In this document: piece by piece, positions 40,187-56,111 of the stretch
How the letters are laid out: every line of letters begins with the position of its first letter
How positions within the stretch are numbered: the stretch's first letter is position 1
NCBI RefSeq assembly: GCF_900185725.1
Contig: NZ_FYAU01000015.1
Coordinates: 1 to 64,000 of the forward strand
DNA: 64,000 nt
Direction: 5' to 3'
DNA from: Stappia sp. TSB10P1A
GTDB lineage: Bacteria > Pseudomonadota > Alphaproteobacteria > Rhizobiales > Stappiaceae
The notes under the pieces: generated by a model
Told to the model about the DNA's origin: nothing
Database searches by the model: none
The model's input: the letters and a program-made list of their open reading frames with translations, nothing else
Program-made: the position numbers and the translations under genes

Positions 40187-41647
40187 TCACGAGGCGGCGA
40201 CCGCGAGGCACAGATACTTGGTCTCGAGATAGTCCTCGATCCCGTATTTCGACCCTTCGCGGCCGAGGCCTGAGGACTTGATGCCGCCGAACGGCGCCTC
40301 GGCAGTCGAGATGAGGCCGGTGTTGATGCCGACCATGCCGTATTCTAGGGCTTCCGCGACGCGCCAGATGCGCGAGACGTCGCGGGCATAGAAGTAGGAG
40401 GCGAGGCCGAATTCGGTGTCGTTCGCCATCGAGATGCCTTCGCTCTCGCTGTCGAAGGGGATCAGCGGAGCGACGGGCCCGAAGGTTTCCTCCGTGAGGA
40501 TTTTCATGCCCGGCGCCACATCGGCCAGCACCGTTGGCTCGTAGAAGGTGCCGCCGAGTTCGGAGCGGCGTCCGCCGGTCATCACGCGTGCGCCGTGGGC
40601 CAGGGCATCGGCCACATGGTTCTCGACCTTGGCCAGCCCCTGGGCATCGATCAATGGCCCGATCTGGACGCCGGGGACGACCCCGTCGCCGACGCGAAGA
40701 GCCGCCGTTGCCTCGGCGAGTTTCTCGGCGAAGGCGTCCATCACCCCGCGCTGCACATAGATGCGGTTGGCGCAAACGCAGGTCTGACCCGAGTTGCGGT
40801 ACTTGGCGATCAACGCGCCTTCGACGGCGGCATCGAGGTCGGCATCGTCGAAGACGAGGAACGGGGCATTGCCGCCGAGTTCCAGGGAGAGCTTCTTGAT
40901 GTCATGGGCGCATTGACGCATCAGGATGCGCCCGACATTGGTCGAGCCGGTGAAGGTCAGCTTGCGCACCTTCGGGTTGGTGCAGAGCTCAAGACCCATG
41001 CCCGGAGCATCGAGGCCCGGCACGATGGACAGCACACCCGCCGGGATGCCGGCGCGCTCCGCCAGCACCGCCATCGCCAGCGCCGAGAGGGGGGTCTTCT
41101 CCGCCGGCCGCCCGACGAAGCTGCAGCCGGCGGCGAGCGCCGGTGCGACCTTGCGTGCGATCATCGCATTGGGAAAGTTCCAGGGCGTGATCGATCCCAC
41201 CACGCCCACGGGCTGCTTGAGCACCAGAATGCGCTTGTCGGGCTGGTGGCCGGGGATCACGTCGCCATAGATCCGGCGGCCTTCCTCGGCAAACCACTGG
41301 ATGAAGCTGGCGCCATAGGCGATCTCGCCCTTGGCCTCGGCCAGCGGCTTGCCCATTTCGGCGGTCAGGATCGCGGCGAGGTCGTCGGCATTGTCCAGCA
41401 TCAGCGCCTGCCAGGCGAGCAGGATCGCGCAGCGGTCCTTTGCGGTGCGCGCCGCCCAGCTTTTTTGCGCGTCATAGGCAGCGTCGATCGCGCGGCGGAT
41501 GTCGGCGGGCCCGAGATCCGCCACCTCCGCCACCTTCTCGCCGGTGGCCGGGTTGGTGACGGCGAAGCGGGCGCCTCCCTCTTCCCATCGTCCCGCCACG
41601 AAGGCACGCGGCTCCAGGAGCGAGGGGTCACGCAAGGCAAGGGCCAT
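40187..41647 (-). CDS. NAD(P)-dependent succinate-semialdehyde dehydrogenase family protein (BlcA/AttK-like)
   Basis: A 486-residue aldehyde dehydrogenase. TPWNFPNAMIARK, the general-base Glu in LELGGNAP, the nucleophilic Cys in NSGQTCVCANR (near residue 285) and EETFGPVAP are all in place, and the overall sequence is of the GabD type. In the Agrobacterium blc system such an enzyme oxidises succinate semialdehyde to succinate. It is the last gene of the 13-gene minus-strand operon, 31 bp after an iron alcohol dehydrogenase that would supply its substrate. Confidence 0.92.
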   Translation of the reverse strand: MALALRDPSLLEPRAFVAGRWEEGGARFAVTNPATGEKVAEVADLGPADIRRAIDAAYDAQKSWAARTAKDRCAILLAWQALMLDNADDLAAILTAEMGKPLAEAKGEIAYGASFIQWFAEEGRRIYGDVIPGHQPDKRILVLKQPVGVVGSITPWNFPNAMIARKVAPALAAGCSFVGRPAEKTPLSALAMAVLAERAGIPAGVLSIVPGLDAPGMGLELCTNPKVRKLTFTGSTNVGRILMRQCAHDIKKLSLELGGNAPFLVFDDADLDAAVEGALIAKYRNSGQTCVCANRIYVQRGVMDAFAEKLAEATAALRVGDGVVPGVQIGPLIDAQGLAKVENHVADALAHGARVMTGGRRSELGGTFYEPTVLADVAPGMKILTEETFGPVAPLIPFDSESEGISMANDTEFGLASYFYARDVSRIWRVAEALEYGMVGINTGLISTAEAPFGGIKSSGLGREGSKYGIEDYLETKYLCLAVAAS

Positions 41648-41678: not shown

Positions 41679-42839
41679 TCAGTGGGCGGCGGTGTAGATG
41701 TCGAGGGCGTCGGCCTCGGTCAGGGGCCTGGGATTGTTGACCAGCAACCGGGTCTGGTTCATGGCGTCGCGCGCCAGTCGTGGCAGCACCTCGGCCGAAA
41801 TCTCCATGTCGCGCAGCCGCTGCGGCAGACCGCAAACGGCCGACAGGGTCGCCAGCCGCTCGATGAAGGCTGCGGCCCGCTCCTGCCCGTCGAGAGCGGC
41901 AAGATCGGGGAAAGCATGGGGCGCGAGTTCCGCATAGGGCGCCGGGGCGACCACCGCGTTGAACCGCAGGACATGGGGCAGGACGAGGGCGTTCGACAGG
42001 CCGTGCGGGATGTGGAAATGCCCGCCCAGCGGATAGGCGAGGGCGTGCACCGCCGCGACCGGGGAATTGGCGAAGGCCTGGCCCGCGAGCATTGACCCGA
42101 GCAGCATGTCGGCCCGCGCCGCCGCATCGCTGCCATCCCGCACGGCCCGCAGCAAGGCTCCGCCCATCAGCCGCAGGGCTTCGCAGGCGAGCGCCCGGGA
42201 CACCGGATTGTTGTTCGGGCTGGCGGAGGCATAGGCCTCGATCGCGTGCACCATCGCGTCGATGCCGGTGGCGGCCGTCACATGCGGCGGCAGACCCAGG
42301 GTCAACTCGGGATCAAGCAGCGCGAGGTCGGGGATCAGGTGCGGGCTGACGACGCCCATCTTCTCCGCCGCCCCGGTGGTGACGATGGAAATCGGCGTGA
42401 CCTCCGAGCCGGTGCCCGAGGTGGTGGGGATCAGCACCAGCGGCAGACGCGGCCCCCTGGCCTTGCCGACGCCATAGACATCGGCGAGCGCTTCCGTTCC
42501 CGGAGCAAGCAGCGCGACAAGCTTCGCCACGTCGAGCGACGACCCGCCTCCCAGGCCGATAATGCCGCCCGCCCCGGCTTCGCGTGCGGCATCGACGGCG
42601 GCAAGCACCACGGCTTCCGGCGGGTCGGCCTGGACATCCGCGAACAGCGTCGTCTCCAAGCCGGCGTCACGCAGCAGGGCCACTGCGCGATCGACGATGC
42701 CGGTGCCCATCATGCCGGGATCGGTGACGATCAGCACGCGCGGGCCGGTCAGCGGCAGGGCAAGGGCCGGCAGTTCGCCGAGCACGCCGGCGCCGAAGCG
42801 GACGGAACGGGTGGTGTTGAAGGTGAAGGGGGCGGTCAT
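41679..42839 (-). CDS. Iron-containing alcohol dehydrogenase (BlcB/AttL-like, putative 4-hydroxybutyrate dehydrogenase)
   Basis: A 386-residue group III alcohol dehydrogenase. The NAD site is GLGGGSSLDVAK, and the metal ligands are Asp and His in GIDAMVHAIEAYAS and the two His in HALAYPLGGHFHIPHG. With a lactonase upstream and a succinate-semialdehyde-type dehydrogenase downstream, oxidation of 4-hydroxybutyrate to succinate semialdehyde is the best prediction. That rests on the shared set of genes with the blc (att) operon, not on a residue-level diagnostic. It lies 10 bp after the symporter gene. Confidence 0.9.
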   Translation of the reverse strand: MTAPFTFNTTRSVRFGAGVLGELPALALPLTGPRVLIVTDPGMMGTGIVDRAVALLRDAGLETTLFADVQADPPEAVVLAAVDAAREAGAGGIIGLGGGSSLDVAKLVALLAPGTEALADVYGVGKARGPRLPLVLIPTTSGTGSEVTPISIVTTGAAEKMGVVSPHLIPDLALLDPELTLGLPPHVTAATGIDAMVHAIEAYASASPNNNPVSRALACEALRLMGGALLRAVRDGSDAAARADMLLGSMLAGQAFANSPVAAVHALAYPLGGHFHIPHGLSNALVLPHVLRFNAVVAPAPYAELAPHAFPDLAALDGQERAAAFIERLATLSAVCGLPQRLRDMEISAEVLPRLARDAMNQTRLLVNNPRPLTEADALDIYTAAH

Positions 42840-42849
42840 GTTGTTGCTC

Positions 42850-44760
42850 CTATCCGCCGAAGGACAGCGCCGTCAGGACGATCAGCGCGAAACCGATGGC
42901 TGCGGTCAGCACCAGGGCGCGCAGTCGCTCCCGCTCTGCCGCGCGCGTGTCGGGGCGCAGGCGCGGCGGCGGGGTATAGGCCGGTATGGCGCCGGTATGG
43001 GGGCTGGCCATCTCCATCTTGTAGGAGAGGAACCAGACGAGCCCGAGGCCGAGGGCCCAGAACAGAAGGCCCCAGGCCCATTGCGACGGCATTCCGACCA
43101 GCCAGGTGCCTGCGGGCGCGCCGAAGGCGATGTTTCCGAACACCAGGCCGGGACCGACGGCGAAGAAGGCCCAGGCCAGCGCCACCGACCAGGCGGTCGA
43201 GCGCAGCGCCTCGGCGCGGGGCGACTGGCGCAGCGTGCCGGCAAGGAACCGCCTTGCTTCTTCCGCCTCGCTGCCGAAGCCCCGGCGCTGGGTGAAGAGG
43301 GAGACGAGCATGGTCACGACAAGGTTGGGCACAAGACCCCAGGCGGCGGAGTGGATCGTCCAGGGCCAGCGACCCCATGGCAGGTCGAGCCCGAGGAAGG
43401 ACAGCACCGCCTGGCCGAAAGGCTCGGTCAGCAGCACGCCGGCAATGCCGAAGCCGGTGCCGGTGATGACCGCGGGGCGCGTGAACCAGCGCACCCAGGT
43501 CATGCCGAGCAGCGGCGTCCACAACTGGACGGAGAGGGGCAGCGCCAGCGCGCCGAGCACGGACAGCGTCACCGGGGTCAGCGCCTGCATCAGCAGCGAC
43601 AGCAGTGCCAGCAGCACCACGGCGATACGCGCCAGGCTGACCGTCGCCGAGCGCGACAGGGCACTGTGGAACCAGGGCTTGTACAGGGTGCGGACCAGCG
43701 CTTCGGCCGCCGTCAGCAGGGCCAGCCCGGCCAGGAGCTGGATGCCGCAGAGGATGCCGATGAAGATCCAGGCCGCGAACCAGGGCGACAGGTTCGCCAT
43801 CAGGGCCGGCACAGACAGCGCCGGATCGGTATAGCCGGCCACCCCGACGGCGGCGGCGGCCAGCGCCACCGCAAGACCGAAGGCGCCCGCCATCACCCAG
43901 GTCTGCCCGGCGGCAAGACCGCGCGGCGTGGCCGTGGACAGCACCACCTTCAGCACGACGGGGCTGGCCTGCATGCCCAGCAGCGCAAAGGCCAGCGACA
44001 GGGCGGCGACGGCGGTGCCCTCATGCCCGGCGGCAGCTTCGCGCCCGATCCCGGCGGTGAACTGGATGACGCCGGCAACGGTCAGGTGGCCGCCGCCGCT
44101 CTCGGCCACAACGGCCTGCAGGCCCCGGTTGAGCGCGGCGAAACCCCCGGCCTCGACCAGGGCGAAGGTGGCAAGGCCGATCAGCGCGGCCATTGCCAGC
44201 ACCGCCTGGATCGCGCCGAGATAGCCGACGGCCCGCATGCCGCCGATCACCACATAGCCGATCAGGATCGCCCCCAGCAGCAAGGCCGCTCCTTCAAGCG
44301 ACAGTGCCCCATCGGTGAGCTGCGCGGCGATGGCCGAGAGGGCCCGCAACTGCAGCCCTGCGAAGGCCACGGCGAAGACCACCGCCACCAGGGCGGAAAA
44401 CACCACGAGGAACTCCGACTGCCAATAGGCGCGCAGCAGTTCCCCTTGCGAGGACAGGCGCAGCCGCTGGCCGACCAGCCACAGCCGCTTGAAGAACAGG
44501 ACCCCGGGGATGGCCAGAACCACGCCGGCTTGCAGGAGCGAGGGATGTGAAAAGCCCTGCGCCGCGATCTCGGCAGGCAGCGCCAGCGTTGCCCAGCCGG
44601 AGACGGAGGCGCCGGCGACGACCAGCGCCGACACCCAGGCGGGAAGCGTGTGTCCGGCCGAGAACCAGGTCTCGTGGCCGGCGTTGGCGAGGGCCGCCAC
44701 CCGCGCCCAGTACAGGGTGACGGCAGCCCAGAACAGCAGGTAGAGCGGGAGCCAGATCAT
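42850..44760 (-). CDS. Sodium:solute symporter (SSS) family protein
   Basis: A 636-residue inner-membrane protein with about 14 hydrophobic segments. It begins with the SSS-like WFSAGHTLPAWVSALVVAGA, and the sodium-site region SVSGWATLALP follows. The C-terminal 150 residues are longer than in simple SSS carriers and end in two further membrane segments. Substrate unknown; a carboxylate would suit the adjacent alcohol and aldehyde dehydrogenases. Its ATG begins directly after the TAG of the 4-TM protein gene with no spacer, so the two are coupled and may form one transporter. Confidence 0.9.
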   Translation of the reverse strand: MIWLPLYLLFWAAVTLYWARVAALANAGHETWFSAGHTLPAWVSALVVAGASVSGWATLALPAEIAAQGFSHPSLLQAGVVLAIPGVLFFKRLWLVGQRLRLSSQGELLRAYWQSEFLVVFSALVAVVFAVAFAGLQLRALSAIAAQLTDGALSLEGAALLLGAILIGYVVIGGMRAVGYLGAIQAVLAMAALIGLATFALVEAGGFAALNRGLQAVVAESGGGHLTVAGVIQFTAGIGREAAAGHEGTAVAALSLAFALLGMQASPVVLKVVLSTATPRGLAAGQTWVMAGAFGLAVALAAAAVGVAGYTDPALSVPALMANLSPWFAAWIFIGILCGIQLLAGLALLTAAEALVRTLYKPWFHSALSRSATVSLARIAVVLLALLSLLMQALTPVTLSVLGALALPLSVQLWTPLLGMTWVRWFTRPAVITGTGFGIAGVLLTEPFGQAVLSFLGLDLPWGRWPWTIHSAAWGLVPNLVVTMLVSLFTQRRGFGSEAEEARRFLAGTLRQSPRAEALRSTAWSVALAWAFFAVGPGLVFGNIAFGAPAGTWLVGMPSQWAWGLLFWALGLGLVWFLSYKMEMASPHTGAIPAYTPPPRLRPDTRAAERERLRALVLTAAIGFALIVLTALSFGG

Positions 44761-45192
44761 CTAGTCACCCTTCCGCATGGCGGGTCCCGCCGAACGCATG
44801 TGGAATTGCGAGAAGGCGCCGCGCAGCCCGTGGCGGGTGACGAGATAGGCAAGGAAGCCGGCCGCCAGCGTGCCGAACAGGGTCAGGCCCGCATAGTAAT
44901 CGGCCATCGTCATGTCTCCCTGCAGCGCTCCGACGATGAACACGAAGCCCAGCACACCGTAGGTTCCGACACCGAGCGCCGCCTCGCCGCGGGTGAACCC
45001 GGTGCCGTGGACGGCATTGACGACAACATGCGCGCCAAGGGCCGTCAGGATCACGGCGACGCCCGCTGCCGAGACGGCCCAGACATCGTGCGCCATCCCT
45101 TCAAGGAACAGCCCGAGGCCCAGAAAGCCAAGGCTGCCCCAGATCGAGAAGACGAGGATTCCGCGGTCGACGTTCGGGGTGCGTTCGCGCAT
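44761..45192 (-). CDS. Small four-TM membrane protein, function unknown
   Basis: A 143-residue protein with four clear hydrophobic segments (about residues 11-33, 38-62, 71-94 and 103-123). It has a charged N-terminus (MRERTPNVDRG) and a basic C-terminus. I do not recognise the family. It lies between the SPFH gene and the symporter, touching the symporter start codon, so an accessory-subunit role for the symporter is the simplest guess. Confidence 0.8.
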   Translation of the reverse strand: MRERTPNVDRGILVFSIWGSLGFLGLGLFLEGMAHDVWAVSAAGVAVILTALGAHVVVNAVHGTGFTRGEAALGVGTYGVLGFVFIVGALQGDMTMADYYAGLTLFGTLAAGFLAYLVTRHGLRGAFSQFHMRSAGPAMRKGD

Positions 45193-45247: not shown

Positions 45248-46942
45248 TCAGTTGGCCGAAGGCTTGCCGCCGCGCGCCTTGGTGCCCTTGGTGGCCGGTT
45301 CGGGAGCCGAAGGGTCGGTGTAGACGATCTTCGACAGGTCCTGCAGCGTATGCGGGCGGTGGACCGTGTCTGCCGACAGGCCGATCTCACCCAGCAGCGT
45401 ATCGACGAAGGGCGCCTGGCTGCGATAGCGCAGGGCCGAGGTCACCACCTGGTCGGCCAGGTTGCCGTCGCGCGGGGTGCCGCCGTCGATCGCGGCGCCG
45501 CTCGCCTGTCCGGAGAGCGAGGCTCCCGAGAGCCCGGGCAAGCCTTCCACATGGACGATCTTGATCTCGTCGATCTGCTCCATCGGCTTGACGCTCTCGC
45601 GGATGATGGCGGGAAGGTTCTCCACCAGCGCCTTGTGCAGCGCCGACCGGCGGCTGGCGTCGGAGCGCAGGTTTTCGGCCGCGTTCAGCTTCTCCTTGCC
45701 CTCCGCTTCCACGCGCAGGCGTTCCTCGAGCGCGGCGACGGCGATGCGGTCGGCATCCGCCCGGTCGCTCGCGGCGGCCTTCTCCGCTTCCGCCAGGATG
45801 CGCAGCCGGACGGCCTCGGACTCGGCAGCGCGCTCGGCCTCGATCACCTCCACCTTCTTCTGGCGGTTGGCGATCTCCAGGTCGCGCAGGGTCTGCACCC
45901 GTTCGGTGGCCTCCACGGCGGCGGCGCGTGCCGCTTCGGCGATCGACTGCGCCTCGGCCCGCTCCTTCGACTTCAGCGAGACGGCGATCTCGCGCATCTG
46001 CTGCTCCAGATCCAGGGCCTCGCGGCGCTTGATCTCCAGCCGCTCGATTTCCAGCTCCATCTCGATGCGGGTGCGCTCGACCGCCTCGCGTTCCTTCACC
46101 TTCGCCGTCTCGATCTCGCGTTCGCGGGCGGCCGCCTCGTTGGCGATCTCGGCCTTGCGGTTGGCGCGCTCGACCGCCACTTCGGCTTCATGCGCCAGCC
46201 GCGCATATTCGCTCTCGCGCTGGATCTCGAGGCTGCGCTTCTCGGCTTCGAGGTTCTTGGCGCGCATCGCGACCGCCGTGTCCTTCTCGATGTCGTTGCG
46301 CTTCTTCTTGCGGCTCTCGATCTGCTCGGTGAGGCGCGTCAGACCTTCGGCGTCGAAGGTGTTGGACTCGTCGAACAGCTTGATGTCGGTCTGGTCGAGC
46401 GAGGTGAGCGAGACGCTTTCCAGTTCCAGCCCGTCGAGGGCAAGGCTCTCGGCCACCTCCTGCTTGACCTCCTTGACGAAGGCCTGCCGGTGCTCGTGGA
46501 TGTGTTCGAGCGTCATCTTCGCCGCGGCGCCGCCCATGGCATCGACAAAACGGCCCTGGATCAGGTCCTTGAGCTGTTCGGCATTCATTGTCCGGGAGCC
46601 GAGGGACCGCGCGGCAATCGCCACGGCCTCTTCCGTCGGGGCGACGCGGACGTAGAATTCCACGGTCAGTTCCACGCGCATGCGGTCCTTGGTGATGAGC
46701 GAGCGCTCGCGGGCGCGCGTCACCTCCAGCCGCAGGGTGTTCATGTTCACCTCGGTGATGTCGTGCAGGATGGGCAGCACCAGCGCGCCGCCGCCCATGA
46801 CGACCTTCTCGCCGCCGAAGCCGGTTCGCACGAAGGAGATGTCCTTGGTCGATCGGCGGTAGAGCCAATGAAGCAGGTAGGCGGCCACGGCGATGACGAT
46901 CGCCGCCAGGATGATGATGGCAATGACGTCTGCACCGTTCAT
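45248..46942 (-). CDS. Flotillin-like SPFH/band 7 protein (YqiK-type)
   Basis: A 564-residue membrane-scaffold protein. One N-terminal hydrophobic segment (residues 6-28) is followed by an SPFH domain (about 35-210, RTGFGGEKVVMGGGALVLP) and a long Ala/Glu-rich coiled coil (about 215-440) with many EAERA-type repeats. The C-terminal 120 residues are less regular. This is the layout of bacterial flotillins such as YqiK, which organise membrane microdomains. It lies 45 bp after the rhodopsin-like gene and 55 bp before the 4-TM gene, so it probably organises the membrane proteins made by this operon (inference). Confidence 0.93.
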   Translation of the reverse strand: MNGADVIAIIILAAIVIAVAAYLLHWLYRRSTKDISFVRTGFGGEKVVMGGGALVLPILHDITEVNMNTLRLEVTRARERSLITKDRMRVELTVEFYVRVAPTEEAVAIAARSLGSRTMNAEQLKDLIQGRFVDAMGGAAAKMTLEHIHEHRQAFVKEVKQEVAESLALDGLELESVSLTSLDQTDIKLFDESNTFDAEGLTRLTEQIESRKKKRNDIEKDTAVAMRAKNLEAEKRSLEIQRESEYARLAHEAEVAVERANRKAEIANEAAAREREIETAKVKEREAVERTRIEMELEIERLEIKRREALDLEQQMREIAVSLKSKERAEAQSIAEAARAAAVEATERVQTLRDLEIANRQKKVEVIEAERAAESEAVRLRILAEAEKAAASDRADADRIAVAALEERLRVEAEGKEKLNAAENLRSDASRRSALHKALVENLPAIIRESVKPMEQIDEIKIVHVEGLPGLSGASLSGQASGAAIDGGTPRDGNLADQVVTSALRYRSQAPFVDTLLGEIGLSADTVHRPHTLQDLSKIVYTDPSAPEPATKGTKARGGKPSAN

Positions 46943-46987: not shown

Positions 46988-47692
46988 TCAGTCACGGCGG
47001 GTCTCCGAGGATGCGCACAGCACCCCGGTGGCCAGCACCGCGACGCCGAAGGCCATGCGGTTCAGGATGTCGGCGATATTGTAGGCCACCGTCAGTTCCC
47101 CGGTGTCGGGGATGCCGGCGAAGGCGGTCAGGAAATTGCCGAGCGGATAGATCGCCCAGCCGATGGTGACGATCAGGCGCAGCCAGAAATAGCCGCTGCG
47201 CACCGCATCGCTTTCAGCCTCACGCACCGCGTCGTCCATTCCGCCGAAATAGAGCTCGCCGAGAATGTAGAGCCAGAACACGAGCCCGATCAGGAAGGCC
47301 AGCGTGGCGTTCATATAGGCCGCCTCGCCCAGGTAGCGGACGAAGACCATCAGCACGGCGACGACGATGAGGCGCCAGAACAGGCCGGCTCCGAGCCGCC
47401 GCGAGGTGGCGGCGAAGAAGTAGAGGGCCATCACCTGCAGCGGGATCGACACGACCCAGCCGACATAGTGATAGACGACCGGCACCTGTCCGGCCGCGCC
47501 CCAGGCGATCCGTCCCTCCCAGGCCGCGGCGACGCCCACCAGGGCCGCAACGGCGCACAGCGTCACCGGCAGCTTCCAGGCCCGCCCCACCCAGGCCGTG
47601 CCGAGAAGCAGCAGCACCGCTGTCGCGGCAAGACCGAAGATCGCCACCGAATAGCTCGCCGCGGTCAGGTCGGCCGTCTCATAAACCGCCAT
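46988..47692 (-). CDS. Microbial (type 1) rhodopsin homologue lacking the retinal lysine
   Basis: A 234-residue seven-TM protein clearly related to proteorhodopsin: HYVGWVVSIPL matches helix C, VRYLGEAAYM helix D, TIGWAIYPLGNF helix F and YNIADILNRMAFG helix G. Key positions have changed. The Schiff-base Lys231 of proteorhodopsin is Arg212 (codon CGC), the counterion Asp97 is Gly78, the proton donor Glu108 is Ala89, and Arg94 is His75. Asp227 is kept as Asp208. Covalent retinal binding and proton pumping are therefore not expected. I chose ATG 47692 for its GGAGG. It sits between an ABC permease gene and the SPFH gene. Rhodopsins without the lysine are known as a scattered group with undefined role. 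Confidence 0.92.
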   Translation of the reverse strand: MAVYETADLTAASYSVAIFGLAATAVLLLLGTAWVGRAWKLPVTLCAVAALVGVAAAWEGRIAWGAAGQVPVVYHYVGWVVSIPLQVMALYFFAATSRRLGAGLFWRLIVVAVLMVFVRYLGEAAYMNATLAFLIGLVFWLYILGELYFGGMDDAVREAESDAVRSGYFWLRLIVTIGWAIYPLGNFLTAFAGIPDTGELTVAYNIADILNRMAFGVAVLATGVLCASSETRRD

Positions 47693-47738: not shown

Positions 47739-49118
47739 TCAGATCTGCGTGCGGATGTGCGGGGAGCGCGCATAGAGCGCGACCATGGGCAGGATCAGCA
47801 GTCCGAAGATGAACTGCTGCCATTGAAAGTTGAGGCCGAGCCCGACAAGGAAGCTCGACAGGACCTGCAGGACTAGGACGCCGATCACCGTGAAGCCGTA
47901 GCCGCCCTGTCCGCCCAGCAGCGAGGTGCCTCCGACCACGACAGCGGCCAGCGTCAGGAACAGATACTGGTCGCCGACGCCGATGAATCCGCCGCCCGAC
48001 CAGCCGAGCAACAGCGATCCGGTCAGCGCCGCGAAGAAGCCGGACAGGGCGTACATGGAGACCCAGTAACGCAGCTCCGAGATCATCACCCGGTTGGCCG
48101 AGGTGCGGTTGACGCCGAGCGCGTAGAGGTAGCGTCCATAGACGGTGGTGCGCATGCCGACGATCAGAACCAGCGCGATGAGGGCCCAGATCACGATCAC
48201 CGGCGGAACAGGCAGGCCGAACGTGGTGCCGTTCATCGAGCTCAGGTTGGCCAGCCATTTGGGAACGGTGCCGAACACGTTGCCCGAATAGGCGGTGCCG
48301 ATCGACGTCAGGATCTGCACGCCGCCGGAGATCGCGAAGCCGGTGCCCAGCGTCACGATCAGCGCCTGACCCTGCAGCCGGTAACTGAGGAACCCGTTGA
48401 TGACGCCCAGGACGACGCCGACGGTCAGCACGATGATCATGGCGAGCCAGGGCGGCACGCCGAGCGAGATCAGGTAGAGCAGGCCGACATTCGCCGCGCC
48501 GATGATGAAGGGGATCGACAGGTCCAGTCCGCCGAGCAGCGCCACCATGGTCTGCCCGACCGAGGCCAGCCCGAGGAAGGCCGCGAAGAGCAGCATCGAC
48601 TTGATGTTCTGCGCCGAGGAGAAGCCTTCGATGTTCATCGCGCCGACGGAAAAGAGGCCCGACAGAACCATGATGCCGATGAAGGCGGAGCGATTCTGCT
48701 GGAACTGTCGGCCGAGCGTGCGCGTCAGGACCAGAATCGTCAGCAGGATCAGCAGCGAGATGACGTTCCAGACATTGAAGAAACCCGTCACGGTCGCGCT
48801 GAGCACGAGGAACGCGAGCAGGATCGCGGCGAGCCCCAGAAGCGGCCAGCGATAGCTGTTCCACAGGCTGCGGATCGGACCGGGGCCGTCTTCGCTGTCG
48901 CCGCCGATCTCCCAGAACTGGCCAAGAACATAGTGCCAGCCCCACATCCACAGGGCGAGCGTGGCGATGGCGGCCAGGATCACCAACTGCACGCTGACGG
49001 CCTCGGCAAAGCCCATGATGATGCCGATGCCGGTCAGGATCAGGCCGGCCACCAGGCCGAGGATGCGGGCGCCGAGCGGCAGGGGGGTGCGCGGGGCAAC
49101 GCGGGCGGCGTCGGTCAT
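47739..49118 (-). CDS. Sugar-type ABC transporter permease (RbsC/BPD_transp_2 family)
   Basis: A 459-residue inner-membrane permease, long for the family (about 330). The first 150 residues contain extra hydrophobic segments and a soluble stretch before the RbsC-like core, which begins near VGQTMVALLGGLDLSI. The EAA-type loop GRYLYALGVNRTSANRVMIS is present. It overlaps the second permease gene by 4 bases and ends 46 bp before the rhodopsin-like gene. The two permeases likely form a heterodimer. Confidence 0.9.
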   Translation of the reverse strand: MTDAARVAPRTPLPLGARILGLVAGLILTGIGIIMGFAEAVSVQLVILAAIATLALWMWGWHYVLGQFWEIGGDSEDGPGPIRSLWNSYRWPLLGLAAILLAFLVLSATVTGFFNVWNVISLLILLTILVLTRTLGRQFQQNRSAFIGIMVLSGLFSVGAMNIEGFSSAQNIKSMLLFAAFLGLASVGQTMVALLGGLDLSIPFIIGAANVGLLYLISLGVPPWLAMIIVLTVGVVLGVINGFLSYRLQGQALIVTLGTGFAISGGVQILTSIGTAYSGNVFGTVPKWLANLSSMNGTTFGLPVPPVIVIWALIALVLIVGMRTTVYGRYLYALGVNRTSANRVMISELRYWVSMYALSGFFAALTGSLLLGWSGGGFIGVGDQYLFLTLAAVVVGGTSLLGGQGGYGFTVIGVLVLQVLSSFLVGLGLNFQWQQFIFGLLILPMVALYARSPHIRTQI

Positions 49119-50533
49119 TCGGCGACCTCCTGCGAAACGGGCGCTGCGGTCTGTGCGGGCGGTGCCGGTCTCTCGCTGCTCATCACCCAGGCAATTGCCA
49201 GAACCAGCGCCGCCACGACGACACCAGTGGCCATGCCGATCTCACGCCGCCGACCGGCCTCGGTGATCGCAAGGCGCAGGAACAGGGCAACCACGGCGAG
49301 GACGATCACCGAAAGGACCAGCGGCGCGGCCTGCAGGCGCAGGGCCTCGGTTGCCGGCGACACGATGGCGATTTCCAGCGGCCCGGTCAGGGCAGCCTGC
49401 ATGTCGAGCGGGCCGGGAAGGACGGCGCCGGCAGCGCCGAGGCTGCGATAGTCGAAGCTGGCATGCAGGATGACGCCGAGCACCACCACCGACAGGGCGA
49501 CGAAGTAGAGCAGCGGCGAGAAGTTCGGTATGCGCCGCTGGATCACCGGGATCAGCAGCGTCAGCAGCAGCGAGACGACCAGGATCGTGCCATAGGCGAG
49601 ATTGGTGACGAAGCTCTGCACCGCGCCGAAGTTGAAGGTCGAGAGCGAGAAGGTGATGAGGTAGAGGTTCAGCGCGCCGAGCGCCGACCCGAAGACGCCC
49701 GCCCGCCCGCCGGCCAGCGACGCGCCGCCCAGCACCAGCGCGGTGACGGCGATCAGCGTATAGGTCGTGCCCTGCGAGGGGTCGCCGGAGCCGATCAGGG
49801 CGGTGAAGCAGATCGCCGCCAGCCCCGCAAAGGCGCCCGAAATCAGATGCGCGCCGATCCGTACGACGGAGATCTGGACGCCGGAGGTATAGGCGGCGCG
49901 CTCGTCCGAGCCCATCAGTCGCAGATGGGTGTAGAAGGCGGTTGCGGTGAACAGCAGCCACAGGCCGGTGGCGATCAGGACGATGATCAGCGGCGGCGAG
50001 AAGATGGTGGTGCCGTAGCCCCATTCGGCCATGAATTCCGGGGCAAGGCCGCCTGGTCGCGGCAGTATGACAAGATTGATCCCCGACAGGGCCAGATAGC
50101 CGGACAGCGACACGATGATCGGCTGGACGCGGACATAGATGACGATCAGGGCGAACAGGAACTGGTACAGCGCGCCTGCGGCGATGGCGTAGAGGAACAC
50201 CGCGATCGGGGACGAGATAATGCCGGCGCCGCTCAGTTGGATCAGCGTGACGTTGATGAAGCCGATCAGCGGTCCGACCGACAGGTCGACGGTTCCGCGT
50301 CCGGAGATCACCGAGGCCATCAACGCATAGGTTGCCAGGATCAGCGGCGAGACGACGATCACCGCCGCGCCGAGGCCATAGCTTGTCGTCAGGCTGGGCG
50401 AGCGCAGGACGGCGAGCGTCAGCAGCGCGAAGAACAGGGTGATCGGCATCAGCAGGAACGGATTCGACCGTCCTCCCTGCCGGGGGGCGTCGCTGCGAGC
50501 GCTGGCGCCGGGACCTGTCGTGGTGATGCTCAC
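49115..50533 (-). CDS. Sugar-type ABC transporter permease (BPD_transp_2 family)
   Basis: A 472-residue inner-membrane permease. It has the RbsC-like core (GRGTVDLSVGPLIGFINV, and the cytoplasmic loop LMGSDERAAYTSGVQISVVR) followed by a further C-terminal part of about 150 residues with two more hydrophobic segments. The N-terminal 25 residues are polar. It overlaps the ATPase gene by 4 bases upstream and the other permease gene by 4 bases downstream, so all three are translationally coupled. Confidence 0.9.
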   Translation of the reverse strand: MSITTTGPGASARSDAPRQGGRSNPFLLMPITLFFALLTLAVLRSPSLTTSYGLGAAVIVVSPLILATYALMASVISGRGTVDLSVGPLIGFINVTLIQLSGAGIISSPIAVFLYAIAAGALYQFLFALIVIYVRVQPIIVSLSGYLALSGINLVILPRPGGLAPEFMAEWGYGTTIFSPPLIIVLIATGLWLLFTATAFYTHLRLMGSDERAAYTSGVQISVVRIGAHLISGAFAGLAAICFTALIGSGDPSQGTTYTLIAVTALVLGGASLAGGRAGVFGSALGALNLYLITFSLSTFNFGAVQSFVTNLAYGTILVVSLLLTLLIPVIQRRIPNFSPLLYFVALSVVVLGVILHASFDYRSLGAAGAVLPGPLDMQAALTGPLEIAIVSPATEALRLQAAPLVLSVIVLAVVALFLRLAITEAGRRREIGMATGVVVAALVLAIAWVMSSERPAPPAQTAAPVSQEVAE

Positions 50534-52344
50534 CGCTGGCCTCCACGGGTCTGACGACCGTCGGCGTCGAACTCGACGATCTTGATACGGCGCGCCGGGG
50601 GCGTTGCTGCGGGGGAGGGCGTCCGGTGAGCCGCCTGCGGCACACGGCCTTCCGCTGGCGGGCGGGGCTGGGGCGCGGCGGCGCGAAGGTGGTCGGGGAT
50701 GTCGACGCGGACCCGCACGCCGTCGCCGGTCGCAGGCGTCTCGGCCGGTCGGCCGGCGACGGGCTTCAACCCCCAGGCAGCGTTGAGCCCGCTTCCGTCG
50801 GTCTGGCCGAACATCGCCTCGAGCACGAGATTGGCGCGCAGGCCGCGCCCGTCAAACGCATCGAATGGCGCCCCGTCGCGGAAGACGATCACCCGGGTGG
50901 CGAAGCCGAGGAACTCCTCGATCTCGGACGACAGATAGACGACGGAGCGCCCTTCGGCCGCGAAGCGATGCAGGTGCTTGTAGAGCTCGTTCTTGGCGCC
51001 GACATCGATGCCTCTCGCCGGGTCGTTCAGCACGATGATGTCGGGACGCATGGCGAAGCCGCGCCCGATCAGCACCTTCTGCTGGTTGCCGCCCGACAGC
51101 GAGGTGATGCGGTCTTCCTTGACGCCGAACTTGATCAGCAGGTTGTCGGCCTCGCGTCGGAACGTGGTGTTCAGGGTTTCCCAGTCGATGATGCCGAGGA
51201 TGCCGGCACGCTTCTTCTCCCGGTAGAGAGGCATCACCATGTTCTCGAAGATCGACAGCGACGCGAAGATGCCTTCGCGCTTGCGGTCGCCGGAGACATA
51301 GGCAATGCGTCCCTTGACGGCTTCGGCAAGGGCGCGCACCGGATGCCAGTGTCCGTGCCGATCCTGCACCTCAACGCTGCCGGACGGGGCGGGCTGGACG
51401 CCGGCCAGCGCTCGCACGAAGGCATCCTGCCCCTGTCCGTCCAGCCCGGCGATGCCGACGATCTCGCCCCGGCGCAGGTCGAAGTCGAAGCTGCGGCTGG
51501 CCGGCCATAGTTTGAGGGCGGCGGCGCGCAGGGCTCGTTCCGGCGTCGCCGGCCGGGCCGGCTCCTGCGTCATGTGCCCGGTTCCAGGGTCCTCGCCAGT
51601 CATCAGCGACAGGAGATTGCGCTCGGTGATATCGGCCCGCTCGAGCACGCCGACGTCGCGGCCGTCGCGCATGACCGTGGCACGGTCCGAGATGCGCACC
51701 AGTTCCGCGATGCGGTGGGTCACGATCAGCACCGTGGTGCCGGCGTCGCGCAGGGCGCGCATCTTGGAAAACAGCCGTTCGGTGGAATCGAAGTCGAGCG
51801 CCGCCGAGCTCTCGTCGAGGATCAGGATGCGCGGATCCGACAGAAGCGCGCGGGCGATGGTGAGCCACTGTTTCAGGGACAGGGGCAGGGTGCCGGCGAG
51901 GGCGTGCGGATCGACCGGCTCCCCCGAAAGCTCTTCCATCAACTGGGCGGCGCGGGCGACCTTCTGCGCCTGGCCCAGGGTCTTGGTGAAGAGCGTGTCC
52001 GCACCCATGAAGATGTTGTCGACGACGCTGGCCTCATCGGCAACGAGCACCTCCTGATAGACGGTGGAGATGCCGAGTGCGCGGCTTTCGGCCGGGGTGG
52101 ACGGGCTTTCGCCAAGGATCGATACAGTGCCGCCGTCCACCGGAAGGATGCCGGAAACGACCTTTGCCAGCGTGCTCTTGCCGCAGCCGTTGCCGCCGAC
52201 GACGGCATGAATTTCGCCGGCCCGGGCGGAGAAGTTGACGCCGTCGAGAGCGCGGGTCGGCCCGAAATACTTGCGAACGTTCCGAACCGCGATGGTCTCG
52301 CGGCCGGGCTTCGCTGTTGCGGCGGGGAGAGCGGCGTCGGCCAT
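50530..52344 (-). CDS. Sugar-type ABC transporter ATP-binding protein (tandem NBDs) with KIVEFD tail
   Basis: A 604-residue protein with two ATPase domains, as in RbsA. NBD1 has Walker A GGNGCGKST (50-58) and Walker B ILILDESSAALD, but its signature is LPLSLKQW rather than LSGGQ. NBD2 has the usual degenerate Walker A (AGLDGQGQDAF) and a normal signature LSGGNQQKVLIGRG. After NBD2, near residue 515, comes an unusual tail of about 90 residues, Pro/Ala-rich, ending PAATPPARRIKIVEFDADG plus nine residues. The same PAATP-ARR and KIVEFD pieces occur at the N-terminus of the lactonase in this operon. Confidence 0.91.
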   Translation of the reverse strand: MADAALPAATAKPGRETIAVRNVRKYFGPTRALDGVNFSARAGEIHAVVGGNGCGKSTLAKVVSGILPVDGGTVSILGESPSTPAESRALGISTVYQEVLVADEASVVDNIFMGADTLFTKTLGQAQKVARAAQLMEELSGEPVDPHALAGTLPLSLKQWLTIARALLSDPRILILDESSAALDFDSTERLFSKMRALRDAGTTVLIVTHRIAELVRISDRATVMRDGRDVGVLERADITERNLLSLMTGEDPGTGHMTQEPARPATPERALRAAALKLWPASRSFDFDLRRGEIVGIAGLDGQGQDAFVRALAGVQPAPSGSVEVQDRHGHWHPVRALAEAVKGRIAYVSGDRKREGIFASLSIFENMVMPLYREKKRAGILGIIDWETLNTTFRREADNLLIKFGVKEDRITSLSGGNQQKVLIGRGFAMRPDIIVLNDPARGIDVGAKNELYKHLHRFAAEGRSVVYLSSEIEEFLGFATRVIVFRDGAPFDAFDGRGLRANLVLEAMFGQTDGSGLNAAWGLKPVAGRPAETPATGDGVRVRVDIPDHLRAAAPQPRPPAEGRVPQAAHRTPSPAATPPARRIKIVEFDADGRQTRGGQR

Positions 52345-52411: not shown

Positions 52412-53584
52412 TCACGGCTTGTAGGCGCGCGGATCGGCCGGACGCAGGAAGAAGTCGTCCAGATAGGCGGGGTCCTGGCCCCAGCGGCTCGCTCCGACGG
52501 CCAGCCAGTCCGGGCTGTCCTCGTTGCAGTCTTCGCCCATCACCTCGGCGAGATCCTGGTGGGTGATCTTGACCGGATCGACGAGCACCGACTGCACCTT
52601 CGGACCCTGGCCCTGCAGCGTGCGCATCATGATGTTCCAGATCAGTTGGATCTCGTCGGCCGGCGGCCAGACCTGATAGGCCGCGGTGATGTAGTCGGGG
52701 TTCTTGCGCCAGTAGCAGAGCGCGCCCAGCTCGCCGCCGATCGCGACGGGGATGTTGCCCCGGCCCGACTGCTGCACGGCGCGCAGCACGCCCATCTCGG
52801 CGGCCGACTGGACGACGATCGCGTCAAGCTGGCCGGGATTGGTCGCAAGCCAGCGCTGGACCTCGCCCTGGGCGACCTGATCGGTCCACATGCCCGCGAC
52901 CTGGCCGGCCACGCGAATGTCGGGCGAGCTTGCCAGTCCGGCAAGGACGCCGCGATGCTGGCTGTCGGATCCGGAGGTGCCGGGAATGCCCTCGACCACC
53001 AGGACGTTGCCCTTGCCGCCGAGCTGCTCGACCACTTCCCGGGCGATCTCATAGCCTGCGACCTGGTAGTTGACCGAGGAATTGACCGAGTATTCCGAGG
53101 TCAGGTAGCCGGTCATCGAGAACACCGGGACACCGCGGTCGGCGGCATACTTGACGGTGGCATTGAGCGCGGTCGGGTTCGAGCAGCACACGATGATCGC
53201 ATCGACGCCCTGGTCGACCAACTGGCGCATCTGCTGGATCTGCGTCGCGTCGTTCAGGTTGGACTGGGTGACGACGACCTCCGACACAAGCCCCAGCGCC
53301 TGCCATTCGGGAATGATGGTGTTCTGCAACTCGTCCATGGCGGCGGCGCGCCAAGTGTTGCCGGCATAGGACGAGGCATAACCGATCTTCCACGGCGGCG
53401 GGTTCTTCGCCTTGAACTCGCGCCAGGCGCTGGGCCCGACCGGCTGCATCGGGTCGAGCATGTCCTTGTTGTAGAGACGCTCGACGACAGCGGGGTTGAG
53501 TTCGTCGAGGCCTTCCGCCAGGGCCGGGCTGATCGCAACGGCCAGCAGGGCTGCGGTCAGGCCGAGGTATCTTTTCAGCGTCAT
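52412..53584 (-). CDS. Periplasmic sugar-type ABC binding protein
   Basis: A 390-residue exported protein of the periplasmic-binding-protein type I (Peripla_BP_4/RbsB) family. The signal peptide ends at ISPALA near residue 23. The mature part has the fold-typical KIGYASSYAGNTWRAAAM, LVDQGVDAIIVCCSNPTALN and VLVVEGIPGTSGSDSQHRG. The C-terminal 60 residues, with Cys and Trp, are not common in RbsB. GAGGAGG precedes ATG 53584. It is the first gene of the ABC block, 39 bp after the lactonase gene. A ligand other than a sugar is plausible. Confidence 0.92.
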   Translation of the reverse strand: MTLKRYLGLTAALLAVAISPALAEGLDELNPAVVERLYNKDMLDPMQPVGPSAWREFKAKNPPPWKIGYASSYAGNTWRAAAMDELQNTIIPEWQALGLVSEVVVTQSNLNDATQIQQMRQLVDQGVDAIIVCCSNPTALNATVKYAADRGVPVFSMTGYLTSEYSVNSSVNYQVAGYEIAREVVEQLGGKGNVLVVEGIPGTSGSDSQHRGVLAGLASSPDIRVAGQVAGMWTDQVAQGEVQRWLATNPGQLDAIVVQSAAEMGVLRAVQQSGRGNIPVAIGGELGALCYWRKNPDYITAAYQVWPPADEIQLIWNIMMRTLQGQGPKVQSVLVDPVKITHQDLAEVMGEDCNEDSPDWLAVGASRWGQDPAYLDDFFLRPADPRAYKP

Positions 53585-53623: not shown

Positions 53624-54571
53624 TCAGTCGTAGAAGTCGTGCGGCGCCTTGCGGAACGCGGCCCAGCCGTCGGGGTCGTGGCCGGTGACGACCATCGCGC
53701 CGGTGTCCTTCGCGATCCGGCGCAGCTTGGCGACGGAGTTGGCGGCATCGGCGGCGGAGTGAACCAGTCCCGGCAGCGCCCGGTCCTCCCAGTGGTCCTG
53801 GGTGTAGGCGGCATCGATGGTCAGCAGCACCGGTCCGGTCTGGGGGAGGGTGACCAGAAACGACATGTGTCCGGGAGAATGGCCGGGCGTGAAGATCATC
53901 CGCACCGTGCCGTCGCCGAACAGGTCGTAATTGTCGGTGTAGTCGCCGCCGAGAAACTTCCAGTCGAGGCCCGGCCGGTCGAAATCCGAGCGGATATAGG
54001 CGCCCTGGGAGAACCAGTGGGGGCGGAAGGCATAGTCGTATTCCGCCCTCTGCACGACATAGGTGGCCTTCGGGAAGCGGCCGATGGCGCCGGTGTGGTC
54101 GAGATGCAGGTGCGACTGCAGGACGTAGCGCACCGTATGCGGCGCCACATCCACCATCTTGAGCTGCTCGATGCAGTTCTCGGACAGGCCCATGACCGGG
54201 TCATAGGCATCCACCACCTTGCCCCAGTGTCCGCGCTTGTCGACGGCGACCTCGGCGGCATTGCCGCCATCGATCACCACGTTGCCCTTGGGGTGGCGGA
54301 TCAGGAACCACGGCACGGGGATCTCGAAGTCCTCCTCACCCTGGTTCATCTTGATGTATTTGAGCTTGGTGCGCAGCGTGCCGGTCTGGAACATGTGCAG
54401 CTCCATCCCCGAGGACTTGCGCCGCCGCGCCGGCGTTGCGGCCGGTGCCGGCGTCGGCGCGAAGACCGGGCGGGGGGCAAGCGCCGAGCCGTCCGCGCGG
54501 CTCCTGCCGCCGGCGCCATCCGCTTCGACCTCGACCCGCAGGCCCTTATCGTCGAACTCCACGATCTTCAT
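53624..54571 (-). CDS. Metallo-beta-lactamase-fold lactonase (AttM/BlcC type) with N-terminal KIVEFD extension
   Basis: A 315-residue protein. From Met56 on it follows the AttM/BlcC/AiiB lactonases closely: the zinc site SHLHLDHTG, FTPGHSPGH, TIDAAYTQDHWE and VTGHDPDGW. These enzymes open gamma-butyrolactone and acyl-homoserine lactones. The first 55 residues are an extra module: MKIVEFDDKG, then an acidic and Pro/Ala-rich linker ending APAATPARRRKSSG. The KIVEFD and PAATP-ARR pieces recur at the C-terminus of the ABC ATPase of this operon. The alcohol and aldehyde dehydrogenases downstream would complete conversion of 4-hydroxybutyrate to succinate. Confidence 0.91.
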   Translation of the reverse strand: MKIVEFDDKGLRVEVEADGAGGRSRADGSALAPRPVFAPTPAPAATPARRRKSSGMELHMFQTGTLRTKLKYIKMNQGEEDFEIPVPWFLIRHPKGNVVIDGGNAAEVAVDKRGHWGKVVDAYDPVMGLSENCIEQLKMVDVAPHTVRYVLQSHLHLDHTGAIGRFPKATYVVQRAEYDYAFRPHWFSQGAYIRSDFDRPGLDWKFLGGDYTDNYDLFGDGTVRMIFTPGHSPGHMSFLVTLPQTGPVLLTIDAAYTQDHWEDRALPGLVHSAADAANSVAKLRRIAKDTGAMVVTGHDPDGWAAFRKAPHDFYD

Positions 54572-54602: not shown

Positions 54603-55451
54603 TCATGTCCGCTCCTCGATGATGCGCAGCGCTTCCCTCAGGTAGACGGCGAACAGCGGATAGTTTTCGGACATCGGGAAATGGCCGATGTCCTCCATCT
54701 CGATGTAGATGCCGCCGGGGATCTGGCGGGCGGTGTTCTCGGTTGCTTCGGGGGGCGTCAGATAGTCGTAGGTACCCGTCATCATGATCACCGGGCAGCG
54801 CCGGGTATCGATGTTGCCGAGCTGGCCGCGCAGGTCGTGGTCGATCGAGTAGAAATAGAGATCGCCCCGGAACACCTCGGAGCCTTGCGTGTAGTAGTGC
54901 CAGGTCAGCCAGCGGTCCTGGTCGGGGGACTGCGGCGCCATCAGATCCCACACGCCGGAGGCGCAGACCTGAGCGGCGTTGGCGTGGGGATGCCGCCACC
55001 AGTCCAGGAAGAAGCCGGGGGCATGCTCCGCCGCCTCGACCGGGATCACGGCGCGGAAGCGGTCCGGATGGTGCAGGGCGAGCTGAAGGGCAAGGTTGCC
55101 GCCGAAGGAAGAGCCCATGAAGATCGGGTTCTTCAGCTCCAGCGCGTCGCAGAACGCGACGACGAACTTCATGTAGTGATCGGCGGTGAGGAGGTACTCC
55201 TCCTTCCACCATTCGCGATTGTGCGGCGGGTCGGACTTGCCGTGCCGGGCCAGATCATAGGCGATCACGTCGTAGTCCCGGGTGATCGCCTCGTCCTCCA
55301 GCAGGCCGCGCCACTGATGATTGTGGCAGCCGGCCGTATGCTGGCACACCAGGGGCTGTCCCTGGCCGTTGCGCAGGTAGAACACCTTGTATTCATAGCC
55401 GTCGACGTCGATGGTCACATAGCGACCGATGACCGGCGAGTGCTTGGCCAT
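54603..55451 (-). CDS. Alpha/beta hydrolase
   Basis: A 282-residue hydrolase of the alpha/beta fold. The nucleophile elbow is GSSFGGNL, the oxyanion-region motif is HTAGCHNHQW, the acid is likely Asp in TGTYDYLTP, and the catalytic His is in EDIGHFPM. It lies between the SCP2-like gene (36 bp) and the lactonase gene (31 bp). It may hydrolyse an ester or lactone that enters the same pathway as the lactonase. The exact substrate is not visible. Confidence 0.88.
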   Translation of the reverse strand: MAKHSPVIGRYVTIDVDGYEYKVFYLRNGQGQPLVCQHTAGCHNHQWRGLLEDEAITRDYDVIAYDLARHGKSDPPHNREWWKEEYLLTADHYMKFVVAFCDALELKNPIFMGSSFGGNLALQLALHHPDRFRAVIPVEAAEHAPGFFLDWWRHPHANAAQVCASGVWDLMAPQSPDQDRWLTWHYYTQGSEVFRGDLYFYSIDHDLRGQLGNIDTRRCPVIMMTGTYDYLTPPEATENTARQIPGGIYIEMEDIGHFPMSENYPLFAVYLREALRIIEERT

Positions 55452-55487: not shown

Positions 55488-55877
55488 TCAGACGGGAACG
55501 CCGACCTTGCGCAGGAGCTCGAACTGGACAGTGAAGTTCCGCAGGTTCTGCATCATCACGAGGGTGTTGCCCTCGATCTTCAGGTCGCGGCGGAAACTTG
55601 CTGCCCAGATGCCGTGATACATCGGCTCGGGAACCGGGCGGGCGAACTCGCGCCAGGTCGCCGGACTTGCGCGCAGGGCGAAGTCGTAGGCATCCAGCGG
55701 CCGGGGATCGGTGTTGATGCGATAGACCTTGCCGTCGATCATTTCGACGATGACCTTCGCCGTGCCCATGTCCCACATGTAGGTGCACGTGAAATACTTG
55801 GCCATCGCGCCGATGGTGGCGTCACGATCCGAAGCCTCGCTGAAGCGCACGGCCCAGTCGCGCAGGCTCATCACCAT
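55488..55877 (-). CDS. Small SCP2-like protein
   Basis: A 129-residue soluble protein with weak resemblance to the SCP2 sterol-carrier fold (the DFALRASPATWREFARP and DLKIEGNTLVMMQNLRNF stretches fit strand-helix positions). The assignment is by pattern and remains tentative. ATG 55877 is preceded by GGAGG. It is the first gene of the 13-gene operon, 85 bp downstream of the likely -10 box. A lipid- or hydrophobe-binding role would fit an operon rich in membrane proteins. Confidence 0.72.
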   Translation of the reverse strand: MVMSLRDWAVRFSEASDRDATIGAMAKYFTCTYMWDMGTAKVIVEMIDGKVYRINTDPRPLDAYDFALRASPATWREFARPVPEPMYHGIWAASFRRDLKIEGNTLVMMQNLRNFTVQFELLRKVGVPV

Positions 55878-55991: not shown

Positions 55992-56021
55992 ACGTTAGTC
56001 ATCATGCTAGACGCATGTCAA
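55992..56021 (-). promoter_or_regulatory. Sigma-70-like promoter of the 13-gene operon
   Basis: On the minus strand TTGACA (56021-56016), an 18-bp spacer and TAACGT (55997-55992). The -35 is perfect and the -10 is moderate. The GTTCA-TGAAC repeat follows about 18 bases downstream. Confidence 0.5.
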
Positions 56022-56111
56022 GGACAAAACGCGGATACATTGCCTGAATTGACAAGCTGGGCGGGGGGCGTAGAACACTCGCGAAGATTGCAGCGGGCAC
56101 AGGAGGAATGG

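Follow-up and report, generated by a model that had tools for sequence, protein, structure and literature searches.

Flotillin-associated rhodopsins (FArhodopsins, FARs) were named by Haro-Moreno et al. (2023; PMC10308929), and their function is left open in the accessible text of that paper. The clusters described there hold a flotillin gene beside the opsin, an SCP-like protein, an inner-membrane translocator, a sodium symporter, and an iron alcohol dehydrogenase. As far as the same text extends, marine members keep the retinal-binding lysine, carry the motif DTT, DTL, or DNI, and coexist with a proton pump; most freshwater members have no lysine and carry Gln, Thr, Leu, or Arg instead. Organising of membrane microdomains is a role proposed for the family. 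Lysine-less type-1 opsins also comprise the haloarchaeal ORPs, one group of which has Arg at this site (PMC4915679), and the betaproteobacterial Rh-noK (via the accessible text of PMC10308929). The opsin studied here is encoded in a 64,000-nucleotide stretch of the Stappia sp. TSB10P1A genome, hereafter the window, and differs from both: the ORPs probably form another clade and often lie beside chemotaxis transducers, whereas none of the 13 same-strand genes of the window operon encodes a transducer, and Rh-noK, unlike our opsin, is xanthorhodopsin-related and arranged in tandem with a working rhodopsin.

The opsin gene (46988..47692) lies on the minus strand, which an earlier note on this DNA had left out while giving the coordinates correctly. 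The frame is intact and encodes 234 amino acids, and GGAGGAAA directly precedes its ATG. Assignment to the type-1 rhodopsins, made in that note by eye, is borne out by the profile search it had proposed: Pfam Bac_rhodopsin matches residues 16–221 (2.1e-20, 73.6 bits, cut-off 24.6), and seven helices are predicted. The protein had been likened to proteorhodopsin; the two can indeed be aligned, but the nearest relatives form the flotillin-associated branch. The best sequence match in the PDB is PsFAR (9r21/9r23; 3.4e-40, 33% identity), followed by the proton pump PsPR and then by proteorhodopsins, with bit scores of ~141 to PsFAR versus ~95–105 to the proteorhodopsins listed above 9jov. For an AlphaFold2 model of the opsin (mean pLDDT 91.1), the top Foldseek matches are 9r23 and 9r21 (TM 0.96, rmsd 1.3–1.4), and 8cnk ranks third; green proteorhodopsin (7b03) and the retinal-free proteoopsin 8cnk have the fold in common with it at TM 0.87–0.89 and 30% identity. 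A literature search found no paper on PsFAR. That the gene encodes a lysine-less flotillin-associated rhodopsin is virtually certain. The earlier note was unaware of this published family, for which lysine loss, including replacement by Arg, is reported from freshwater (accessible text of PMC10308929); the opsin is thus no new kind but a member of a lysine-less FAR branch already glimpsed in freshwater metagenomes.

The alignment of the opsin with PsFAR is free of gaps, so that its numbering runs one off that of PsFAR and Arg212 faces Lys213; a lysine hidden in the helix G column by misalignment is thereby ruled out. Alignment with 69 proteorhodopsin-like sequences, which include many near-copies from one marine group, places His75 at the position of R, Gly78 at D, Ala89 at E, and Arg212 at K, exactly as the earlier note had it, and the helix F residues Trp179, Tyr182, and Pro183 and the helix G residue Asp208 are retained, again in agreement with it. 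The equivalents of the Schiff-base lysine, Asp97, and Glu108 of light-driven proteorhodopsin, all of which 7b03 and 8cnk carry, are absent from the opsin (R212, G78, A89), and its motif G78-S82-A89 differs from those of the marine FArhodopsins. We counted residues in 37 lysine-less sequences (25 of an R group and 12 of an L group; the duplicates L044 and L013 were excluded). Arg212 is found in 24 of the 25 R-group sequences and is constant in the first close set (8/8). Leu occupies this site in the L group, and site 208 is D or E in every sequence compared. At site 119, all 37 lysine-less sequences, the L group included, have Arg and all 69 proteorhodopsin-like sequences have Gly; five Lys-keeping FARs have Ala (three), Glu (one), or Gly (one). 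Sites 119 and 83 lie opposite Glu120 and His84 of PsFAR in the gap-free alignment, and by its title PDB entry 9r23 is the PsFAR mutant H84V/E120G, which suggests by analogy that this site is relevant to the pocket. Judged from its position, Arg119 would plug the retinal pocket. Exactly one of sites 75 and 212 is Arg in 35 of 36 readable lysine-less sequences, L045 having neither; we note this Arg swap only in passing, for it essentially amounts to a single difference separating the R clade from the L clade.

In a tree of 55 sequences, with five Lys-keeping FARs within the FAR clade, support was 100/98 for the FAR clade and 95/81 for the Lys-keeping FARs. The lysine-less sequences form a single clade with support of 100/100, whose branch measures 0.96 changes per column, and the lysine was therefore lost on one branch of this tree. 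The L group has support of 100/97; the R group (93/78) is not strong, and L045 falls in it yet carries Leu at 212. A scan of genome contigs, from which the best 80 of 593 relatives were retained, gave 26 lysine-less loci (16 with Arg and 10 with Leu at 212) and 54 with Lys. The named carriers include members of the Rhizobiaceae, Roseobacteraceae, Paracoccaceae, Phyllobacteriaceae, and Devosiaceae, with one from the Sphaerotilaceae. The lysine-less hosts have genomes of 3–7 Mb, several are cultured soil, plant, or marine bacteria, and they are not streamlined. A rhodopsin match occurs in 29 of the 397 genomes from the window's order: 13 lysine-less FARs (window included), two Lys-keeping FARs (G144 and G009), and 14 others, in which sites 78, 82, and 89 are Asp, Thr, and Glu. 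No rhodopsin match was found in four other genomes of the genus or in 14 of the 15 other genomes of the family, the fifteenth (G388) holding a canonical proteorhodopsin together with the retinal-forming dioxygenase BCD; from this near-absence, we infer horizontal gain of the opsin. Among 72,556 plasmids searched, six records matched, five of them at 60–80% identity. One of these, Pararhizobium gei plasmid p2 (L158, NZ_CP119410.1), carries the entire cluster; it is typed as conjugative, and its annotation names bacteriorhodopsin, AttM, and flotillin. Beyond the accessible text of PMC10308929, the main texts of the open-access literature yielded no prior report of such opsins in Rhizobiales.

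The opsin belongs to a series of thirteen minus-strand genes that runs from 55877 to 40187 and in which no gap exceeds 67 bases; an IclR-family regulator gene on the plus strand diverges from it (56004..56936; Pfam IclR_C 9.7e-26; NCBIfam BhcR 127.6 of 350, below cut-off). Neither the promoter scan nor the terminator scan exceeded its shuffled controls. The first gene (55488..55877) encodes an SCP2-fold protein with a Pfam SCP2 score of 13.9 bits, below the cut-off of 21.3, and a model (pLDDT 86.7) whose best PDB match is sterol carrier protein 2cx7 (TM 0.72). It is followed by genes for an alpha/beta hydrolase (54603..55451; Pfam Abhydrolase_1 3.9e-23), an AttM-family lactonase of the MBL fold (53624..54571; NCBIfam AttM 430.2 bits, cut-off 390), and an ABC importer, comprising a periplasmic substrate-binding protein (52412..53584; Pfam Peripla_BP_4 1.8e-35), an ATPase of the YtfR/Rbs type (50530..52344; Pfam ABC_tran; NCBIfam YtfR 338 bits, below the cut-off of 850), permease 1 (49115..50533; Pfam BPD_transp_2 2.7e-14), and the Rbs-type permease 2 (47739..49118; Pfam BPD_transp_2 3.7e-22). 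Beyond the opsin, and 45 bases after it, starts the gene for a flotillin/SPFH protein (45248..46942; Pfam Flot 2.5e-33, Band_7 1.2e-16). The remaining genes encode a small hydrophobic protein (44761..45192; the 4-TM protein of the earlier note, with no family match above cut-off), a sodium:solute symporter family protein (42850..44760; Pfam SSF 1.9e-12), an iron-containing alcohol dehydrogenase assigned by Pfam (41679..42839), and a succinate-semialdehyde dehydrogenase (SSADH, 40187..41647; NCBIfam 699.7 bits, cut-off 646.35). The alcohol dehydrogenase may be a 4-hydroxybutyrate dehydrogenase or ErcA-like enzyme, both NCBIfam scores being below cut-off (ErcA 293 of 550, 4-hydroxybutyrate dehydrogenase 258 of 500). 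Outside the operon, a single 544-residue frame at 38132–39766 combines a GntR-FCD regulator with an amidohydrolase domain and adjoins a gene for a TRAP-type solute-binding protein.

AttM/Blc enzymes turn a gamma-lactone into a dicarboxylate, with a 4-hydroxy acid and then a semialdehyde as intermediates, and the Agrobacterium blcABC/attKLM locus unites an AttM-type lactonase, an iron alcohol dehydrogenase, SSADH, and an IclR-type regulator. The gene set of the window may be of this type, and adds the importer, the opsin, and the flotillin; by analogy, the lactonase, alcohol dehydrogenase, and SSADH together would take a gamma-lactone to a dicarboxylate. With the described FArhodopsins (accessible text of PMC10308929; PsFAR), the opsin shares the clade, the fold, and the flotillin gene adjoining on the same strand, and the SCP2-like (sterol-carrier-like) protein, the inner-membrane translocator, the sodium symporter, and the iron alcohol dehydrogenase are likewise common to both; the lactonase–SSADH catabolic module is one point on which the window cluster differs. 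Apart from that text, the main texts of the open-access literature contained no prior report that combines an opsin and a flotillin with a transporter and a lactonase.

Permease 2, opsin, and flotillin are contiguous, on one strand and in that order, in all 26 lysine-less loci among the best 80 of 593 relatives, which confirms the genetic link to the SPFH protein and importer suggested by the earlier note. In these loci, the stop-to-stop frames are separated by gaps or overlaps of tens of bases, with the exception of one 273-base overlap where the opsin frame is open upstream; the small hydrophobic protein is present in 25 of them. Seven cluster genes were looked for in the 54 Lys-keeping loci of the same best 80, none of which carries any. 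In a wider sense, same-operon orthologues that keep the lysine, named in the earlier note as a refutation, do exist in more distant FAR clusters, where the permease, flotillin, SCP2 protein, and hydrolase are related, but not in the lysine-less clade. Since Lys-keeping FARs share much the same cluster, lysine loss does not define the role of the opsin. The catabolic set of the Lys-type clusters is different in the stretches read: L149 encodes a LamB/YcsF protein, a biotin carboxylase, and a DMFA2_C protein, with an AttM-like fragment (77% identity) at its edge, and L111 encodes hydantoinase A. A profile search inside the Lys-type clusters found no small membrane protein. When 385 genomes of the class were searched for the FAR flotillin, 54 matched, and an opsin lies beside it in five (L127, L128, L133, L134, and L136) of the 29 loci fetched (L119–L147). 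The FAR-type flotillin is thus common without an opsin and alone predicts nothing.

Both permeases of the importer are enlarged. Residues 1–131 of permease 2 form an extra four-helix N-terminal extension by hydropathy count, and for most families the family match starts only at residue 137–144; in permease 1, the family match stops near residue 331 of 472, and the last ~148 residues form an extra three-helix C-terminal extension, again by hydropathy count. Besides the window and seven clusters obtained by the genome search, 25 of the 26 lysine-less loci (best 80 of 593) have the permease 2 extension with 3–4 predicted helices; permease 2 of the 26th locus (L037) is cut by the contig end. The permease 1 extension occurs in all 25 such loci that include the gene (best 80 of 593), as it does in the window. 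Six of the seven genome-search clusters have it too; in the seventh (L148), the permease 1 frame has unread bases and a single predicted helix. Two Lys-type clusters, L111 (5231–7447) and L149 (5251–7527), have 9–10 extra predicted helices in permease 1, and permease 1 of the Lys-type L148 (5530–7917) contains a G/S-rich IQSLGSG repeat. Both extensions are absent from the importers of two rhodopsin-less relatives (G045 and G281; permease 2 at 60% identity), which also come without the flotillin, SCP2 protein, small membrane protein, and symporter. Used alone as a query, the permease 2 extension matches 16 of 397 genomes, namely 14 of the 15 with a FAR and two of the 382 others, the latter two matches being weak and short (7.7e-4 and 9.6e-4). 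The match in G144 is also weak (6.6e-5 over 46 residues), and in G009, the FAR genome without a match, the contig ends beside the opsin. The binding protein, in turn, matches 20 of the 397 genomes at 1e-60, six of which (49–67% identity) are without a rhodopsin hit; the reading covered four of these (all but G023 and G385), two in context and two, G329 and G181, at contig edges. G329 (67%) may represent either a cluster without an opsin or an assembly gap at the contig edge.

A short peptide is shared by the ATPase and the lactonase. The ATPase tail ends in KIVEFD (50566–50583), and the N-terminal leader of the lactonase reads MKIVEFD (54551–54568). The pattern [KR][IV][IV][ED]F is found in the ATPase tail of all 20 R-group ATPases read and of the window, in 17 of 19 lactonase leaders (missing in L116 and L117) and that of the window, in one of 185 other cluster frames, and in none of eight non-FAR ABC ATPases. 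We read the peptide as a putative docking motif. In the L group, the linkers read, those of eight of nine loci, are without the KIVEF motif; the C-terminal domain is instead a phosphatidylethanolamine-binding protein (Pfam PBP; L048, 5251–5754, 3.1e-33; other loci by eye). The joining of such a domain to an ABC ATPase in L-group clusters is an odd fusion in itself. No mention of the permease extensions or of KIVEF was found in the accessible text of PMC10308929 or in literature searches.

In the reading we propose, the retinal-binding lysine of a type-1 opsin was lost a single time within the FAR clade, and the protein would have been kept for a role without light, contributing its seven helices to a membrane assembly as a structural or regulatory subunit. 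This putative assembly would consist of the adjoining flotillin and the enlarged Rbs-type ABC importer, with the SCP2-like protein, the small membrane protein, and the sodium symporter. The importer would bring in a lactone or hydroxy-acid ester, and the lactonase, alcohol dehydrogenase, and semialdehyde dehydrogenase of the operon would convert it towards succinate. We give this reading as a whole, in which the opsin is a seven-helix subunit without pigment and the flotillin organises an importer for lactones or hydroxy acids, a probability of roughly 0.6. The identity of the opsin and its independence of light are well supported; its contact with the flotillin and the permease extensions, as well as the lactone/hydroxy-acid substrate class, are presumed. 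Co-inheritance fits a physical assembly, and linkage in one operon could give the same pattern. Between an importer partner and a sensor, the odds for the former are about even. More tentatively, and less likely than not, the opsin fold may have become a permanent component of the ABC importer that carries no pigment, with opsin and flotillin docking on the FAR-only permease extensions and KIVEF docking the lactonase, to form a transport-and-catabolism complex in a flotillin domain.

The emptied pocket could alternatively serve a chemoreceptor, in which the pocket with Arg119 and Arg212 would bind a carboxylate, that of a substrate, of a product, or of a fatty acid, and the opsin would gate the importer or signal that the compound is present. 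The charged residues of the pocket region are conserved (Arg119 in 37/37 sequences, Arg212 in 24/25 of the R group), retinal-free proteoopsin holds decanoate through a carboxylate–lysine salt bridge (accessible text of PMC11322631), and a non-light sensor role has been proposed for haloarchaeal ORPs (PMC4915679). However, the L group combines Leu212 with Arg119, so Arg212 is no general ligand anchor; moreover, large side chains at 119 may fill the pocket rather than open it, and no signal transducer gene is among the 13 same-strand genes. We therefore consider a sensor of this kind rather unlikely.

A light-driven role for the opsin in the window genome is very improbable. The whole-genome search found exactly one rhodopsin there, the 46988–47692 opsin, which extends to the genome the earlier statement that no other rhodopsin lies beside it. 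In a Pfam search of 31 lysine-less genomes, a set that omits six of the 26 named loci (L031, L033, L035, L038, L040, and L042), 30 had one rhodopsin and one (G411) none; the search missed the known divergent FAR of G411, and a very divergent second rhodopsin could escape likewise. BCD occurs in one of the 31 lysine-less genomes (G405, partial) versus six of seven proteorhodopsin genomes (Fisher 1.7e-5, descriptive since the genomes are related), and the search that detects it in the latter did not find it in the window genome. At the default threshold, lycopene cyclase matches all 40 genomes through weak FAD-domain matches, and we therefore used only matches below 1e-15, a limit set after the match list was seen: three of 31 lysine-less versus six of seven proteorhodopsin genomes have one, and the window genome has no strong match (best 7.5e-6). 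Even in the absence of a Schiff base, the opsin might still bind a pigment taken up from outside, be it retinal or some other carotenoid derivative, and some proteorhodopsin bacteria without retinal synthesis may scavenge it (accessible text of PMC11322631). With no lysine, no counterion, and Arg119 at the pocket glycine, this is very unlikely, and the mutation of E120 (site 119) and H84 of PsFAR in 9r23, known from the title, suggests that the pocket site is relevant.

Seven Lys-keeping FAR genomes were also compared. Two, 1.4 Mb in size, combine the FAR with a pump and BCD; the other five, two of which are 61% and 84% complete, have the FAR alone and no BCD. In G601, G694, and G771 (4–4.5 Mb), the Lys-keeping FAR is the one rhodopsin, and BCD was not found. 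Assistance to a light-driven proton pump that the cell also contains, as proposed for marine FArhodopsins, agrees with the two rhodopsins and BCD of the marine-type genomes G674 and G751 and with the same pattern published for streamlined marine bacteria (accessible text of PMC10308929). A second rhodopsin was, however, found neither in the window genome nor in the 31 lysine-less genomes, which makes such assistance highly improbable here and rules it out for the window genome unless the pump is too divergent for Pfam. That Lys-keeping FARs, including those of the three genomes named above, occur without a pump or BCD argues against FArhodopsins helping pumps in general.

The opsin is under purifying selection, with dN/dS of 0.040–0.262 over 15 pairs (Nei–Gojobori; rough values, as many dS exceed 1); the values for flotillin and permease 2 are near, and the close relatives whose sequences were fetched contain no frameshifts and no neutral dN/dS. 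Together with the constancy of Arg212 (8/8), the missing second rhodopsin, and the rarity of BCD (1/31 genomes), this agrees with the view, already taken in the earlier note, that the fold is selected without the chromophore. A decaying proteorhodopsin relic, to which the loss of lysine, counterion, and proton donor alike would point, is scarcely credible given the intact frame, dN/dS like that of the neighbours, invariant new residues, and a gene order conserved across many families, and a pseudogene is ruled out by dN/dS and intact frames.

Three points are new here: which bacteria are the hosts, that any retinal setting has been lost, and the association with an enlarged importer and lactone catabolism. 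The lysine-less FARs, in whose genomes no other rhodopsin was found and almost always no BCD, take light out of the question of FArhodopsin function. They occur in cultured, non-streamlined bacteria and once on a conjugative plasmid (Pararhizobium gei). The catabolic genes suggest a substrate class, and the setting in an importer operon makes the job of the opsin testable. If the coupling is real, a type-1 opsin would serve as a transporter subunit.
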